IMG/VR virus record: IMGVR_UViG_3300044800_000423 | Span: 1 to 30,664 of that record | DNA from: a virus | Strand: one strand, 5' to 3' | DNA length: 30,664 bases | In this document: in pieces, positions 4,497 through 29,820 of the stretch | Layout: every line of letters begins with the position of its first letter | How positions within the stretch are numbered: the first letter of the stretch is position 1 | The notes under the pieces: model-generated | Seen by the model: only the letters and a program-made list of their open reading frames with translations | What the model was told of the DNA's origin: nothing | Database searches by the model: none | Made by a program: the position numbers and the translations under genes

Positions 4497-6835
4497 TAAC
4501 CGCTCCTCCGCGTCTTCTCCGCAAACGCCTGATTAAACGCCGTGACCAGCGGCTCCGCCATTCCGTTTTTAACCGCGAGCGTTATCGCGGTGACAAGCTC
4601 TTCCAAACTTGCGTTGCTGCGGATGCTTCCAACGCTTATGTGCGGACTCATAGTTACATAAATAGTCGTCGGCGTCGATTGCAACCTATTAAGTGGAATG
4701 ACAGCTTCAGGACCTGCTTCGCCGATAAGCGCATACGTCGGCTCAGTAACGATTCCGCCGTGCTGCATGATTCTTGCTGTTCCGCCTGGACCTGTCGTGG
4801 TACCTATCGTCTGATACTCTTCTGGAAAATTAGTGACAAGCGCACCTGTATAACTCATGAAGTTTTTTAAAGAAGTGTCGTACCCGCTTGACAGAACCTT
4901 TATGCTCGTGTTTACGCCTGCCTGATTTATCGAAGCGAGAATATCTTGATGCGTCTGCGCAGCCGCTTCCTCCTGAGCGTATGCTGTTTGCAAGTCAGCG
5001 TTCTTCTGGTTCTCAATACCTAAAATAATCGTTGCCAACGACGCTGCCAACTGCGCCAACGTGTTATTTAACGTTTGAAGCCCAGTCGTCGTTATCGTCG
5101 CGTACTGCTGTGCAGCAGCCAGCAAATCAGCGTTTTTCCGAGTTTCAATCGCCGCCAAGTCAGTTGCTTCTGCCCCAGCTATCGTAGTCAAATCAGCCGT
5201 CCTGCCTGCCTCAATAGTGACAGCTTCGTCAGCCTGCGTCTGCTCCGCCTCCAACTCTACCAGGCGATAATGGTCAGAAGTGTCGCTGCGTTGAGCGCTG
5301 TACGTTTGATTTAACTTCGCTACTTCCGCCTGATACTTCTTGTCACTTATGAGCCCAGCGGTATGAGCGTCTTCCAAAGCCACCCTTTGCGCCAACATGT
5401 TCATTTCAAGAGTGTCTAATTCGCCTTGACGCGCAGCGCGAATACTGTTCAGCCCCGTCATTGATGCCGCAATAAGGTCATCATAGTAACTGTTGGTATC
5501 GCTGATTTGCTGGTCATATGTTGTTTGCAAGTCACTAGTCTGCTGCGCATAAAACCGTTCAATTTCACTATCCACTGTCGTTAACTCGGTAGTTTGGAAC
5601 CCCAGTTTCAGACTCCAAAAACTTTTAAAATCAGTCAGCTGCTGGTCGTAAGCCGCGTTGGCAACGTCAACCTCGGCCTGGCTCGCTGTTTGAGCGGCTG
5701 TTTCTTCCGCAGTGTAGAAAGTGATGATTTCCGCGTCAATCGTTTCCAGAAATGTTTTTGTCAAACCAAGCCGTACATTCCAATACGCCGTAATAATCGC
5801 AAGGTCAGCTTGGTAACGAGCGTTTTCCGCAGTTACAAACTCGTTTATTGCGGCTGTAACCGCGGCGAGACCAGTAAGCGCCGTGCCAGTGATGCCTGTG
5901 ATGCTGGCTCCGTACGTGGTCGCCGCTGAACTTGCACCCTGAAGAGCAACAGTGACGCCTGCAACTGCGGCAGCAACACTTCCTAAAACGACTGGTAGAG
6001 CAGTACCCCAACTAAGCGCACCGTAGAAAGCTGCAACCGCAACAGTCGCCGCTATCAATACGCCTATGAGAATTGCGATAACAGCAGCTGTTTGCCGCAT
6101 CGGCTCAGGCACGCTTTCAAGAATAATGTAGGTAGCGGCGAAAGCGCCTACGGCAGCCGCCGTGCTTATAGCCAACGTTTTCATGCTGATATCGAGGCTG
6201 GCAAGTTTACTAGCCACATTAGCCATAGTTTCAGGAAGCTTGTGATATGCAGTGTAAAGACCGCCAATGACCGCGATGGCTGAAGGCACAACAGCTAACG
6301 CCGCGTAAATCATGCTATTATTAAGATTGTTCTGTGCGACACCGACGCGTTCCTGAGCCACAGTCAAAGAGTCCTGCGCAGTCGCAAGCCTAGCCGCCGC
6401 ATCCGTCGCCTGCTGACTATCAACCCCATATTGCACAACAGCCTTATTGTACGCTACCTGCGAGGCTTGAAGAGCATTCGTGCTTTTCTGAACGTTCAAG
6501 TTAGCACGGTCCAGATAAACCTCGCTGTTTGAGACACGTTCAAAACTCATAAACAACGTTGCGCCAGCCAACGCCAGACTATTCACCATAAGAACCTGGC
6601 TGCTGAAGCTTTGCGTCGTGGCATCAGCGGACTTAGTCACGTAGCCGTACTGCGCATTAATCTCGTTAACCTGACTGCTCGCACTCTTGTATGCGTTGCC
6701 CATGTTGCTTGTCGAGGTAGTAGCTTGCTGAGTGGCCGTGTCAATTTCGCTCAAATTAGAGAGTAAACTCTGAATAACGCTGCTCGATTCGTCGTAAGCC
6801 TGTATATAAATTCCTAATTCTGTTTCATAACTCAT
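4496..6835 (-). CDS. Tape measure protein
   Basis: The 779-residue product sets tail length and occupies the tube lumen in long-tailed viruses. The N-terminal ~170 residues are helical and Gln/Ser/Thr-rich; ~175-300 holds several hydrophobic segments (such as ALAVVPSAIAVIGGLYTAY); ~330-620 is a long coiled-coil region rich in Ala, Gln and Asp. The C-terminal part has the tape-measure signature GEAGPEAVIPL (residues ~705-715). The start at ATG 6835 lies three bases after the stop of the frameshifted chaperone, a coupling typical of this gene pair. By the rule of about 1.5 angstrom per residue the tail would be roughly 115 nm (inference). Confidence 0.92.
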   Translation of the reverse strand: MSYETELGIYIQAYDESSSVIQSLLSNLSEIDTATQQATTSTSNMGNAYKSASSQVNEINAQYGYVTKSADATTQSFSSQVLMVNSLALAGATLFMSFERVSNSEVYLDRANLNVQKSTNALQASQVAYNKAVVQYGVDSQQATDAAARLATAQDSLTVAQERVGVAQNNLNNSMIYAALAVVPSAIAVIGGLYTAYHKLPETMANVASKLASLDISMKTLAISTAAAVGAFAATYIILESVPEPMRQTAAVIAILIGVLIAATVAVAAFYGALSWGTALPVVLGSVAAAVAGVTVALQGASSAATTYGASITGITGTALTGLAAVTAAINEFVTAENARYQADLAIITAYWNVRLGLTKTFLETIDAEIITFYTAEETAAQTASQAEVDVANAAYDQQLTDFKSFWSLKLGFQTTELTTVDSEIERFYAQQTSDLQTTYDQQISDTNSYYDDLIAASMTGLNSIRAARQGELDTLEMNMLAQRVALEDAHTAGLISDKKYQAEVAKLNQTYSAQRSDTSDHYRLVELEAEQTQADEAVTIEAGRTADLTTIAGAEATDLAAIETRKNADLLAAAQQYATITTTGLQTLNNTLAQLAASLATIILGIENQKNADLQTAYAQEEAAAQTHQDILASINQAGVNTSIKVLSSGYDTSLKNFMSYTGALVTNFPEEYQTIGTTTGPGGTARIMQHGGIVTEPTYALIGEAGPEAVIPLNRLQSTPTTIYVTMSPHISVGSIRSNASLEELVTAITLAVKNGMAEPLVTAFNQAFAEKTRRSG

Positions 6836-6838
6836 TTT

Positions 6839-7401
6839 TTAGCCTCTTCGCTGCTGCTTCCAGAACCAACTCAACCACGCCTCTAAGAAAACGATTTGAA
6901 AAGGAGTCAACCCGCCGATGCGCTCGAGCGAGTAACCGAATTCATGCGCGATCAAACCGAAGTTTTGGGCTTCAACGTTGACGCTGATCCATTCTTCAAC
7001 GTCCCCGGCGTTGACGCCTGTTTGCGCGAAAAAAAACTTCCTTCTCCCTGCAACCGCGTCAAAAGCCTCACGACAACCTCATAGGGCATTGCTCGGACAT
7101 CCTGGTCAGTTAAGCCCGGGTTAGCAGGCGCCAACTGCTTAACGAGAAATTGAAGGCTGCGATCACGGTTATCCGGGTACTTCTCAATAATCTCGGTTAA
7201 GTCAGCGTAATTCAACAGTACATAGCGGATAGTGCCTAAGTCTTCGTCGAAGATTTCGCGGATCTGCTTGGCCTTGCGCACGATGTCTTTAGGGTCAAAA
7301 ACCAATACTCGCTTAAGCTTCTCTTCCGCGTACTCCTCAAGCGCCTCCTGCATCTGGGTTACCTTAGCCCAATCAATCTTTTCTGTTTCTACTTCACTCA
7401 T
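6839..7401 (-). CDS. Tail-assembly chaperone, -1 frameshift fusion (GT-like, ~187 aa)
   Basis: A second frame overlaps the end of the chaperone gene and continues it to TAA at 6841-6839. If ribosomes slip back one base on the T run at 7036-7029, residues up to ...GEGSFF are followed by FAQTGVNAGDVEEWISVN, then by a segment containing GLTPFQIVFLEAWLSWFW and ending KQQRRG. That tail reads as real protein, whereas the unshifted end is a Ser/Thr/Lys-rich low-complexity tail. This matches lambda G/GT logic, in which the fusion carries a tape-measure-binding T domain. The frame has no good start of its own and abuts the tape measure. A homopolymer sequencing error would give the same picture but would not explain the in-frame slippery heptamer. 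Confidence 0.75.
6952..7401 (-). CDS. Tail-assembly chaperone, zero-frame product (G-like, 149 aa)
   Basis: The start is taken as ATG 7401, with GAGGTGA a few bases upstream; GTG 7410 is the alternative. The acidic, helical protein begins MSEVETEKIDWAKVTQMQ. It includes RKAKQIREIFDEDLGTIRYVL and a central NYADLTEIIEKYPDNRDRSL, as expected of small cytosolic chaperones that coat the tape measure before tube assembly and are absent from the virion. The gene lies between the tail tube and tape-measure genes. After the slippery run the zero frame continues about 25 residues to a stop at 6952. Confidence 0.8.
   Translation of the reverse strand: MSEVETEKIDWAKVTQMQEALEEYAEEKLKRVLVFDPKDIVRKAKQIREIFDEDLGTIRYVLLNYADLTEIIEKYPDNRDRSLQFLVKQLAPANPGLTDQDVRAMPYEVVVRLLTRLQGEGSFFSRKQASTPGTLKNGSASTLKPKTSV
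7029..7036 (-). other. Slippery sequence for -1 ribosomal frameshifting
   Basis: On the minus strand the codons read AGT TTT TTT TCG, so a T TTT TTT heptamer (7036-7030) sits exactly in the X XXY YYZ register of the upstream frame. It falls in the last part of the chaperone gene. Downstream GC-rich bases (CGCGCAAACAGGCG) could give some structure, but I have not folded them. Confidence 0.75.
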
Positions 7402-7461: not shown

Positions 7462-7860
7462 TTAGACTGTTCCAACCGTGAATGTTGCTGCTTCACCGCT
7501 TACGTCTTCGCCTACAATGCCTTTCTGGTCCGCCTTCAAACTCCACTTGTCAAACACTGCGCCGCCAAGCGTGAATTTCGGATTACCCGTCGATGTTGTC
7601 CCAGCAGGATACACAATTATGGTTACTGCTGTGCCAGCTAAAACCGCGGTAGCGTACGTGCTGTCAATGAACAGTTTGCCGCAGGTGAACTTGAAAGTTT
7701 GGTTGCCCGGCGCCACAACCGCCGGTAACTGACTGCCCATCTGATACTCCTTTAGTATGTCTGAGGATATGTCGCAGGTTATGTTTTGTGCGTAGCCGAT
7801 TGCCGTGCCCCCCATCGTTATTACTGCGAGACGCCCAATTATTGGTAAAGAATTCGTCAT
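7462..7860 (-). CDS. Major tail tube protein
   Basis: The ATG at 7860 follows AGAGGTGA. The 132-residue product begins MTNSLPIIGRLAVITMGG and reads as a compact beta protein with an internal helix (SSDILKEYQMG), the usual outline of tail-tube subunits. The end KGIVGEDVSGEAATFTVGTV resembles the C-terminal strands of such proteins. It lies immediately before the chaperone pair and tape measure, the standard place for the tube gene, and no sheath gene is nearby. This supports a non-contractile tail. The assignment rests on gene order and fold pattern, not on a signature motif. Confidence 0.75.
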   Translation of the reverse strand: MTNSLPIIGRLAVITMGGTAIGYAQNITCDISSDILKEYQMGSQLPAVVAPGNQTFKFTCGKLFIDSTYATAVLAGTAVTIIVYPAGTTSTGNPKFTLGGAVFDKWSLKADQKGIVGEDVSGEAATFTVGTV

Positions 7861-7884: not shown

Positions 7885-8436
7885 TTATTTTGTTACTTTG
7901 TCACTTTGTTTTCTGGGAAAGAACTGTTTACCGAACGGGAAATGCGCCACATCCCAGAGGCAAGGCGCATACTCCATCTCAAGAAAAGCGCGTTTGTGAG
8001 CGTCAAAATGCTCCTTCGGAACGAAGCTTTCATCCAGCGGGTACTCCCATTGACTGCGGATGCTCTGCAATGCCGCAGCGTACTCGAGGCTTGACGTGGC
8101 CGTAGTTACCTGATCCGCAGCTAAGAGAATCGCTAGACCCAGCCACCCCCGATAATACCTGTCCATTTCGCCAAGGTACATGACTAATTTTTCGCTAAGC
8201 TCAAGGGCATGCTGAAAATTGCGGTCTCTAAGCGTCTTGATTCTCTGATAAGGCACATCGTCGAAGATGCCGCAGTACACGCTAACGCTGAAAGCCTTAT
8301 ACATATTCCTGTAAATTTCGCTAAGCGCTTTCGTCTGCGGATACGTCGGCTCTACACGTGGAACAGCACGGTTCAAAACACGCACCGCCAAATTCACGAA
8401 ACGCTTAACCAGGTGAAGCTTCAACCACTTGTCCAT
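7885..8436 (-). CDS. Hypothetical helical protein in neck/tail module
   Basis: The ATG at 8436 has AGGAGG about ten bases upstream, so the 16-base overlap with the methyltransferase gene is real. The 183 residues are mostly helical and rich in Arg, Tyr and Trp (for example YRNMYKAF, DRYYRGWLGLAILL). There is a basic N-terminus (MDKWLKLHLVKRFVNLAVR) and a basic end (FFPRKQSDKVTK). It is placed between the neck genes and the tail tube, where a head-closure or tail-completion factor could sit, but I recognise no family. Confidence 0.65.
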   Translation of the reverse strand: MDKWLKLHLVKRFVNLAVRVLNRAVPRVEPTYPQTKALSEIYRNMYKAFSVSVYCGIFDDVPYQRIKTLRDRNFQHALELSEKLVMYLGEMDRYYRGWLGLAILLAADQVTTATSSLEYAAALQSIRSQWEYPLDESFVPKEHFDAHKRAFLEMEYAPCLWDVAHFPFGKQFFPRKQSDKVTK

Positions 8437-8918
8437 TCACCATTCCTCCTGCGGAGTTTAACAGTCATTTCCAAAGGCAAACGGAAAAGCGGAAAGAAAT
8501 TATTCGGGAAGCAACGCCACTCGCTGATTGTGACTCCTGCGCCTATCCTGTTGAAGTCGGTGCATTTGAAATGCCAAAGGTGAAAATCGTGACGTCGCTC
8601 ACCTAAACGATGCGGACATTTAACTGTTATTTCACGTCTCGCAACCCGCAACATTTCCCTAACGAGCAGAGCAGGATCCCGCACGTGCTCAATAACGTGG
8701 CTGCTGACGGCTTCCTCAAATGCGCCGTCCTTGAACGGTAAATGTTGACTGTCGCATAACACGAAGTTTGCAGCTTCTTTCGTGTCAATTTTCAGGTTAA
8801 CTAAATGCAACTTTGCTTTTTTACCGCTACGATGCCCCTCATCTTTCACGTACAAGTCGCAGTTAACATCGCCCGTAGGATGACATCCGCATCCGACGTC
8901 CAGCTTAAGCCATTTCAT
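8421..8918 (-). CDS. SAM-dependent class I methyltransferase inside the tail module
   Basis: Residues 5-14 (KLDVGCGCHP) are the glycine-rich SAM-binding motif I. QHLPFKDGAFEEAVSSHVIE (~58-77) and DPALLVREMLRVARREI give the Methyltransf_11-like strand-helix pattern around the active site. At 165 residues it is a minimal domain without an obvious target-recognition part. The start ATG 8918 has AAGGT eight bases upstream. It overlaps the next gene and follows the gp10-like gene by five bases, so it is made with virion proteins. A substrate cannot be named; modification of a virion protein, a glycan or a small molecule are all possible. Confidence 0.8.
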   Translation of the reverse strand: MKWLKLDVGCGCHPTGDVNCDLYVKDEGHRSGKKAKLHLVNLKIDTKEAANFVLCDSQHLPFKDGAFEEAVSSHVIEHVRDPALLVREMLRVARREITVKCPHRLGERRHDFHLWHFKCTDFNRIGAGVTISEWRCFPNNFFPLFRLPLEMTVKLRRRNGEWTSG

Positions 8919-14671: not shown

Positions 14672-15532
14672 TTAAATTGTGGTTAGATCGCAGATAGCGT
14701 TGCTATCTTTAATCACTGGCAAACCGTTAACGAAGACTCTGCCGAACAATCCTGCGCCTGCGCGTATACTTTCGGTTTCTGTTTCAACGTTGATGTCGCG
14801 AGATATCACATGGCTAAATCTAGTGATGTCGCCGCCAATGGGCGCTTTCATCAGGATCCCTGTGCCTGCGGTGATTGCTTCAGTACTGAATATTTGGCCG
14901 CCGATTCTGGCTAACACTCGGTCTCGCCATGCGACTGCGGTGCTTGCGACAAACTCGTCTAGTTCAATGTCCTGCGTCGGGTTAATCACGAGGTTATATG
15001 GTCCATAAATGTGGTCAGCGGCTAACTTCACGATGGCAGCTTTCAAGGTTATGGGGATGTTTGTGGCAGTTGTCCAATCCGCCCCTGTTTCACTGTTTCC
15101 TGCTCCATTATAGAGCCCCGGGATAACGTCTGTACCGTTGATTATCATGCTGTCTTCTTTCAATCCTACCTGGTAGGCTGCTGCGTCACTATACTTAGTT
15201 GGCAAGGGTATTCCCGTCATGCGTGAAGCGTCAACGTCTTTCTTTGGAATCACGAACTCGTGGTGCGTGCATGGAATGTTCACTGGAGTACGGTCTAAAC
15301 TAATTATGTCCAGCACTTCACGTCCCGGGTAACTCGGGTCAATTCTTGCAGCGCTCATTTCGGATAGTTTGTCGTACGCGTATGTTTCCGCGTTCGGATC
15401 AATATATTCAGGTTGCAGGAGTTTGCGTCCTACGAAGACTCTGCGTGCGATTGCAACGACTGTCGGCATCAAATAGAGGCCCTGCTCTGTCTGCAGCGGC
15501 TCGTCTTTTCCAACGTATCTTAAAGGTTTCAT
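14672..15532 (-). CDS. Major capsid protein (HK97/encapsulin-like fold)
   Basis: The 286-residue protein starts at ATG 15532 with GGAG eight bases upstream. The segment YIDPNAETYAYDKLSEMSAA is the N-arm/spine region of capsid proteins of the encapsulin-like branch. It is followed by an E-loop-like stretch (VNIPCTHHEFVIPKKDVDA) and an A-domain with HIYGPYNLVINPTQDIELDE, the last resembling the linocin/encapsulin P-P-Y-x-L/V strand. Its length matches small HK97-type subunits. It sits after scaffold and decoration genes in the usual order. No delta-domain cleavage is obvious, though a separate protease is encoded upstream. Confidence 0.85.
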   Translation of the reverse strand: MKPLRYVGKDEPLQTEQGLYLMPTVVAIARRVFVGRKLLQPEYIDPNAETYAYDKLSEMSAARIDPSYPGREVLDIISLDRTPVNIPCTHHEFVIPKKDVDASRMTGIPLPTKYSDAAAYQVGLKEDSMIINGTDVIPGLYNGAGNSETGADWTTATNIPITLKAAIVKLAADHIYGPYNLVINPTQDIELDEFVASTAVAWRDRVLARIGGQIFSTEAITAGTGILMKAPIGGDITRFSHVISRDINVETETESIRAGAGLFGRVFVNGLPVIKDSNAICDLTTI

Positions 15533-27906: not shown

Positions 27907-28112
27907 TTACTACGTACCTCCAGGCGATGATGCTGTTTTTTGCCATCCATCCCGACATCCCAATACTTGCCACCCGGCGCATGATTATAGCAAACACAGC
28001 AGTCATCGCAAAGCATCAAACGCCTACCAAAACCGCCCTCGATCCCACTACCCTTGTTACCATGAACCATCGTAACCTTACCGCAAAGACCGCAAGTTCC
28101 AAGCTCAGGCAC
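27903..28112 (-). CDS. Zinc-finger-like 69-residue protein
   Basis: GTG 28112 overlaps the preceding gene by eight bases and follows GGGAGGC. C7-x2-C10 and C35-x2-C38, with further Cys at 39 and 41, form a ribbon or treble-clef-like site; the segment between is Gly-rich (GNKGSGIEGGFGRR). A His/Lys-rich tail follows (MDGKKQHHRLEVRSK). The stop region overlaps a copy of the dispersed motif (27908-27919). Nucleic-acid binding is plausible. Confidence 0.65.
   Translation of the reverse strand: MPELGTCGLCGKVTMVHGNKGSGIEGGFGRRLMLCDDCCVCYNHAPGGKYWDVGMDGKKQHHRLEVRSK
27908..27919 (-). promoter_or_regulatory. Dispersed motif, half-site overlapping a ribosome-binding site
   Basis: On the minus strand AGGTACGTAGTAAA sits between GGAGGT and the ATG at 27906, so the motif and the ribosome-binding site share bases. 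If a protein or a structure occupies it, it would affect the mini-gene. One of 12 positions differs from the strict copies. Confidence 0.45.
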
Positions 28113-28764
28113 GATTCCAAGCCTCCCGCAGCGACTTACGAAAAACCTTAACCCCAGCCTTCTCCAACAAACCGATGAGCTGCATAGTTTTCTCTAAACT
28201 CGGCTCAGGCAACTTATTGCAGTAATTATCATAGCCAACAGCAACAAACGCTGGTTTGATGTTAAGAAGACGCTGAGCAAAGTATCGGCTAAACTCCATA
28301 ATGGGCTCAATCGAAACCATTTTTTGAGAACAGGGTATTTCAACTTCCCACAAGTACTCAAGCCTAAAAGCTTCTGGCGGACCAGTTAACTCATGATCAA
28401 TGTCGCTTTCGATTGTGGCACCACAAACACAGTTCTCAGGGATCTCAAATTCTCTGTAGCGCCCTGGATTCTTTGTAAGCAATAGAAACTTGGCTGGGCT
28501 TTTACGGATATACGCCAAGATTGCCTCAATTATTTCGGCTGGAACCCAATGCCCAAATAAATCCGTCATGTCACAGACAAAGACAAAATCCGTTGCAGCA
28601 AACTTTCGCGTTAACTCATGTGTGATTAATCTCGGTTTGCCTTGATATTTCTTTTGCATGTAGCGTTCCGCTAATTTCCTAGCCCAACAGTAAGAACATT
28701 TATGAAGGCACTCGCCACCGAGCGGATTCCATGTACACGTGATAAAAGGAAACATTTTGCTCAT
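28105..28764 (-). CDS. DUF5131 (phage Gp37/Gp68-like) radical-SAM-like protein
   Basis: The 219-residue protein has C19-x3-C23-x2-C26 (ECLHKCSYCWARK), the iron-sulfur cluster motif of radical SAM enzymes. It also has the family-typical FVCDMTDLFGHWVPAEII, LLLTKNPGRY and MVSIEPIMEF segments, which identify the DUF5131/Gp37-Gp68 family found in many phages and archaea. The chemistry of the family is not established to my knowledge. ATG 28764 overlaps the stop upstream. Together with the methyltransferase at 29263 it may modify nucleic acid (inference). Confidence 0.85.
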   Translation of the reverse strand: MSKMFPFITCTWNPLGGECLHKCSYCWARKLAERYMQKKYQGKPRLITHELTRKFAATDFVFVCDMTDLFGHWVPAEIIEAILAYIRKSPAKFLLLTKNPGRYREFEIPENCVCGATIESDIDHELTGPPEAFRLEYLWEVEIPCSQKMVSIEPIMEFSRYFAQRLLNIKPAFVAVGYDNYCNKLPEPSLEKTMQLIGLLEKAGVKVFRKSLREAWNRA

Positions 28765-29263: not shown

Positions 29264-29820
29264 TAAGAAGACGCCTCCAGGGGCTTCATGAAAATGCACC
29301 AATAAGTGTGACTGGGCTTTCCATGCTTACTCGTGCCGGCGCCGCTATTCATATTGCAGAACAAAGGCTTACACGGAAACAGCTTCAGAACCGTCTTAAC
29401 GGAAATGTTGTTGTCGTTCCACTTGAAAAACAGAAAGCCCCCAGGCTCTAGAACCCTGAAAAGCTCCTTGGCGCCACGCTTGATATCGTCTGGCCAAGTT
29501 TCAGCGTTAAGTTCACCATACTTTTTCTTGAAGAGACTTTTTTCTCCGAGCCACTTCAGATGAGGAGGATCCCAATTAACAGCCTTGAACCTGCCATCTG
29601 GAAAATCAAGCTTACGAAAGTCACCTTCAACCGTCAAATTCTTAGGCAGCCACTTCCGACGCCCACGCCTACCTCTCTGCGTATTGTAAGCATCAAAATC
29701 CTTAGCTAACTCTGCATCATCACGCTGATCCAAAAAGACAACAAGCGAATTATCTTTGTCCAGCCACATTTCCCTAAAGCCTGATGAAGCATCCAGAATA
29801 ATCGGCGCCTTGGAATCCAT
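29263..29820 (-). CDS. Phage-type class I SAM methyltransferase
   Basis: The 185 residues follow the layout of a methyltransferase widespread in phages: ILDASSGFREMWLDKDN (motif I region, usually with Cys-Gly where Ser-Ser-Gly stands here); VEGDFRKLDFPDGRFKAVNW; the catalytic DPPH (a D-P-P-Y variant); KYGELNAETWPDDIKRGAKE; and VLEPGGFLFFKWND. Histidine in DPPH and the substituted motif I are worth noting. Substrate could be DNA or RNA base or a small molecule. ATG 29820 overlaps the stop of the small upstream gene, with GGAGGC at eight bases. Products of 28105 and 29263 may act together. Confidence 0.8.
   Translation of the reverse strand: MDSKAPIILDASSGFREMWLDKDNSLVVFLDQRDDAELAKDFDAYNTQRGRRGRRKWLPKNLTVEGDFRKLDFPDGRFKAVNWDPPHLKWLGEKSLFKKKYGELNAETWPDDIKRGAKELFRVLEPGGFLFFKWNDNNISVKTVLKLFPCKPLFCNMNSGAGTSKHGKPSHTYWCIFMKPLEASS

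Follow-up and report, generated by a model that had tools for sequence, protein, structure and literature searches.

A tail gene in the 30,664-nucleotide stretch of viral DNA studied here (IMG/VR record IMGVR_UViG_3300044800_000423, positions 1-30,664, hereafter the window) is divided between two reading frames that meet at a slippery heptamer, and the pattern of this heptamer is deeply conserved against codon bias in related viruses and proviruses. We consider it highly probable from the sequences that the gene undergoes −1 programmed ribosomal frameshifting, with a tandem slip as the best reading, and that it thus produces two tail assembly chaperones, G and GT, much as an initial annotation of the window had proposed.

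Gene layout and relatives

Every coordinate in that annotation holds, and the features of the locus are collected in Table 1. The zero frame of G opens with an ATG at 7401 and ends at a stop at 6954-6952; its final 25 codons, past the slip site, form a variable, low-complexity tail. The zero-frame codons AGT TTT TTT TCG start at 7038 and place the heptamer in the −1 register, inside an eight-T stretch (7036-7029). The −1 frame opens at 7078, and its extension past the slip site has the length and the stop that had been annotated, with three bases between that stop and the tape measure ATG at 6835. Joined through the slip, G and T form a GT protein of 187 aa.

Table 1. Features of the predicted frameshift locus, with positions in the window.
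Feature	Positions	Strand	Basis
Tail tube protein, directly upstream of G	7462..7860	-	Pfam PF18906 (Phage_tube_2) and synteny in relatives
G, zero-frame tail assembly chaperone (predicted), 149 aa	6952..7401	-	ORF, relatives, AlphaFold2 model
Slippery heptamer T TTT TTT	7030..7036	-	In-register equivalent in 83/83 T-bearing copies; codon control
T, −1 frame extension, 63 codons plus stop (6841-6839)	6839..7030	-	Conserved in 41-row alignment; AlphaFold2
Tape measure protein candidate, 779 aa	4496..6835	-	Assigned by position and length

Relatives were selected by protein similarity, and the heptamer was not a criterion. Searching viral contigs with each of the two parts (zero-frame and −1) and with their alignment yielded 67 IMG/VR loci, and a scan of genome contigs yielded two loci in one Candidatus Bathyarchaeota MAG. 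A profile search of 257 Bathyarchaeia genomes gave 13 gene copies in 7 genomes (both MAG loci included), and 398 genomes of the phylum Thermoproteota gave three more, two of them alike. The set of copies with both parts (n = 83) comprises the window, the 67 viral loci, 12 of the 13 class copies (spread over six genomes) and the three phylum copies. These copies are related, some of them near-identical. The first set contained 68 complete fused proteins (the window, 65 viral loci, L078 and L079), which fell into 16 clusters at 60% identity. Phage records held no relatives detectable by DNA search or by protein search with G and T, and the terminase, used as a query for viral relatives, found none.

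The order tube-G-T-tape measure is kept in relatives and proviruses, which agrees with the lambda G/GT-like arrangement described in the initial annotation; the tube assignment is weak in Pfam (E 3.8e-5, just under the curated cut-off), and the tape measure is called by position and length. T is followed by a homologue of the tape measure candidate in proviruses and in the 18 viral relatives used for comparison, and a family search with the candidate itself returned no match.

Sequence-family searches with G and GT likewise returned no match, and the absence of a curated family leaves some room for a frameshifted viral gene pair with a function other than tail assembly chaperone. We regard such a function as unlikely, given the tail tube and tape measure genes that flank the gene in relatives and proviruses, the size and architecture of G and T, and the fold matches. 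The AlphaFold2 model of G (pLDDT 84) aligned best in VIA-align with YqbN (3klu, Z 7.1) and the HK97 tail assembly chaperone (2ob9, Z 6.1), followed by alignments at Z 5.2 and 4.8 and then a drop to 2.8, all of these scores being below 8. A Foldseek search of viral models gave weak matches (E > 0.005), several of the named ones being tail assembly chaperones, and Foldseek against the PDB gave no significant match. Taken together, the fold matches and the synteny make a chaperone the likely identity of G.

Conservation of the slip site and of the extension

All 83 T-bearing copies carry a canonical in-register X XXY YYZ heptamer at the junction, as the proposal of a programmed −1 frameshift would lead one to expect. 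The kinds seen are T TTT TTT/A/G/C, G GGT TTT, A AAT TTT, A AAT TTC, C CCT TTC and T TTC CCT. In long open frames, taken from the window plus 16 related loci, in-register X XXY YYZ occurs at 0.35% of codon positions, and the set of heptamer kinds specified for this count occurs at 0.044%. The initial annotation had expected both the T run and the overlap to persist in relatives; the overlap does, whereas the T run itself does not, the bases of the heptamer varying among copies while the slippage pattern stays.

Codon choice at the junction departs from that in the rest of the gene. In a 41-copy codon alignment, the Phe column of the slip site is TTT in 40 of 40 copies, compared with 19 TTT and 18 TTC at one Phe conserved elsewhere in the gene; of conserved Gly codons away from the junction, only 2 of 39 are GGT, whereas all Gly codons inside or leading into the heptamer are GGT. 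The codon ahead of TTT TTN encodes Ser, Gly, Leu, Asn, Asp, Ile or Arg, to which the proviral copies add Ala, and its third base is T without exception (third-position T in general, 26%). One provirus in genome G086 (L106, G086:C130:30000-31900) provides a natural control: T is missing, G is followed directly by the tape measure gene, and the sequence reads GCT GGG TTT CTA, so that the residues GFL are kept and the heptamer is lost by synonymous change. The slip-site pattern is conserved deeply and against codon bias, and on these comparisons we judge it to be more than chance and to reflect something other than sequencing error.

Transcriptional slippage, in which the polymerase adds a base at the eight-T run and some mRNAs encode GT directly, is slightly less probable still than a non-chaperone function. 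The run in the window is of a length that can in general cause polymerase slippage. Relatives with seven, six or four T nevertheless retain an in-register X XXY YYZ, and copies with G GGT TTT A, A AAT TTC, C CCT TTC or T TTC CCT keep the pattern with no long run at all. Polymerase slippage fits these observations poorly because a mechanism based on run length predicts no codon register.

No other part of the protein is as conserved as T, which follows the pattern AQ-x-IG-x-IAHEYGYTL...LTPFQ, and the AlphaFold2 model of T is all-helical (pLDDT 92). Relatives back the T-like extension read from the window, which is conserved in the 41-row alignment. Overlapping genes with their own start codons are common in viruses, and T might by the same token be a separate protein. 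In the stretch from the opening of the −1 frame to the T core, no ATG and a single GTG occur in 71 copies, and a separate start would leave the conservation of the heptamer unexplained. We consider this very improbable; the second frame overlaps the 3′ end of G without a start of its own, and T is best predicted to be part of the same gene.

Homopolymers are prone to errors, and the junction might in principle come from misread or misassembled DNA, or from a recent mutation that shifted the frame of an otherwise continuous gene. This has next to no probability, and the relatives already refute it: the two parts stand in the 0/−1 relation in every one of the 83 copies, which come from many metagenomes and several host genomes, and the nearest relative, at 72% nucleotide identity, carries seven T in place of eight with the register unchanged, CCC standing where the window has TCG. 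Relatives in which the two parts are fused without a slippery run were sought as a refuting case, and none was found among the 83 copies.

Proposed mechanism and candidate stimulators

Under programmed −1 ribosomal frameshifting, the majority of ribosomes would stay in the zero frame and make G. In a minority, the P-site and A-site tRNAs on TTT TTT would shift back by one base, and translation would continue in the −1 frame to give GT, in which G is extended by the T domain. If the parallel with lambda holds, G may coat the tape measure protein, and the rarer GT may bring tail tube subunits to it through T.

No conserved stem-loop was found 5-9 nt past the slip site in 32 loci (folding without pseudoknots), and shuffle z-scores of the downstream folds were near 0 in most of them. 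The window has a downstream fold with z −2.6 at 55 nt and −1.0 at 95 nt; the nearest relative has z 0.3, so the 55-nt fold is not common to both. RNAalifold gave −1.6 kcal/mol for the downstream region, with no compensatory pairs. A Shine-Dalgarno-like sequence upstream of the slip site is present in part of the loci only; it is favored in most sequences of the poly-T clade, and its median percentile over the 32 loci is 0.5.

The U-rich sites, together with remarks in PMC5009743, prompt us to raise, purely as a hypothesis, that tRNA-Phe modification might play a role. Each of the seven host genomes tested carries a wyosine-formation family gene (PF08608), and TYW3 was not found in one of these genomes. 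The broader proposition would be that Thermoproteota ribosomes make tandem −1 slips at X XXY YYZ sites, U UUU UUN in most cases, that are bare of any conserved RNA stimulator, and that a property of the host tRNA, e.g., the wyosine state at position 37 of tRNA-Phe, sets the G:GT ratio; we hold it to be doubtful.

Host of the virus group and comparison with known systems

The earlier attribution of the window to an archaeal virus gains backing from relatives in Bathyarchaeia genomes. The Bathyarchaeia genome G054 is one contig of 2,202,057 bases with an archaeal 16S rRNA gene at 1,953,037, and the gene occurs in it twice, at 793 kb and 1,366 kb, in two proviruses. Each copy lies in a module of homologues of window genes (portal, protease, cement, capsid, tube, tape measure and fibre). 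Over longer stretches, tail genes of Bathyarchaeia proviruses share ∼65-72% identity with the DNA of the window, and the product of one tail gene of the window is 69% identical to the counterpart in the L079 provirus. An archaeal host, probably of the Bathyarchaeia, is well supported for the virus group, and we infer the same for the virus of the window itself.

Other genes of the window, all on the minus strand, also drew attention. The gene at 14675-15532 likely encodes the major capsid protein and matches Linocin_M18/encapsulin (PF04454, E 1.8e-18), which reads as an encapsulin-like HK97-fold capsid in a Bathyarchaeia-linked virus. A DUF5131 or radical SAM-like protein is encoded at 28108-28764, and two methyltransferase-like genes lie at 8424-8918, within the tail gene region, and at 29266-29820.

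Frameshifting in lambda G/GT is a textbook case, and its slip site is G GGA AAG. The gene described here resembles lambda gpG/gpGT in that one gene would give two chaperones by a −1 slip late in G, with T in the −1 frame, and in that it precedes the tape measure gene; it differs in its mostly T TTT TTN sites, in its archaeal host and in a sequence similarity that is undetectable. A −1 frameshift is conserved in the tail genes of long-tailed dsDNA phages, lambda gpG/gpGT among them (PMC5009743).

The initial annotation had called frameshifting sparsely documented in archaeal viruses. PMC5009743 and PMC8211752 list −1 frameshifts predicted in HVTV-1 and HCTV-1, -2 and -5, and a counterpart predicted as a +1 frameshift in HSTV-2, and a G-T gene with a −1 frameshift at G GGA AAT has been predicted in Hardycor1 (PMC7911831). 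Frameshifting had thus been predicted earlier in several haloarchaeal tailed viruses, and the present gene is an added member, not the first case. Like HVTV-1, HCTV-1/2/5 and Hardycor1, the viruses studied here are archaeal tailed viruses with a predicted −1 G-T frameshift; those siphoviruses have halophilic hosts and few members, whereas here the hosts are Thermoproteota, the second half of the heptamer is pyrimidine and there are 83 copies.

A 2021 review gives fucA1 of Saccharolobus solfataricus as the only reported archaeal −1 case (PMC8211752). Both fucA1 and the present gene would involve −1 frameshifting on a Thermoproteota ribosome. The former is a cellular gene with the site A AAA AAT, interrupted only in two strains (PMC8211752), while the latter is viral and widely conserved, and its frameshift is predicted. 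In the open-access literature, frameshifting is absent from two surveys of Bathyarchaeia viruses and proviruses (PMC10848311, PMC11705971); reports in subscription journals are possible. The lambda mechanism and the halovirus predictions were already known, and what appears to be new is a well-supported case on Thermoproteota ribosomes, predicted on strong comparative evidence. A single viral gene gives dozens of natural slip-site variants under selection on archaeal ribosomes, and these many variants, together with the natural loss-of-T control, make the question of which heptamers archaeal ribosomes accept directly testable.

HFTV1 and Drs3 were considered as sister cases and rejected, their T-like frames being +1/−2 and not −1. 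In HFTV1, gp37 (50 aa) overlaps gp36 between the tube and tape measure genes (L125, 17693-18308) in a +1 (or −2) frame without a −1 heptamer, and Foldseek weakly matched the T model to a 50-aa HFTV1 protein. Methanobacterium virus Drs3 (L126, 23208-23909) contains an unannotated T-like stretch, DLTPLQSYF, after ORF 30 and ahead of a large tape measure-like gene, likewise in a +1 (or −2) frame, and is possibly a +1 case in a methanogen virus.
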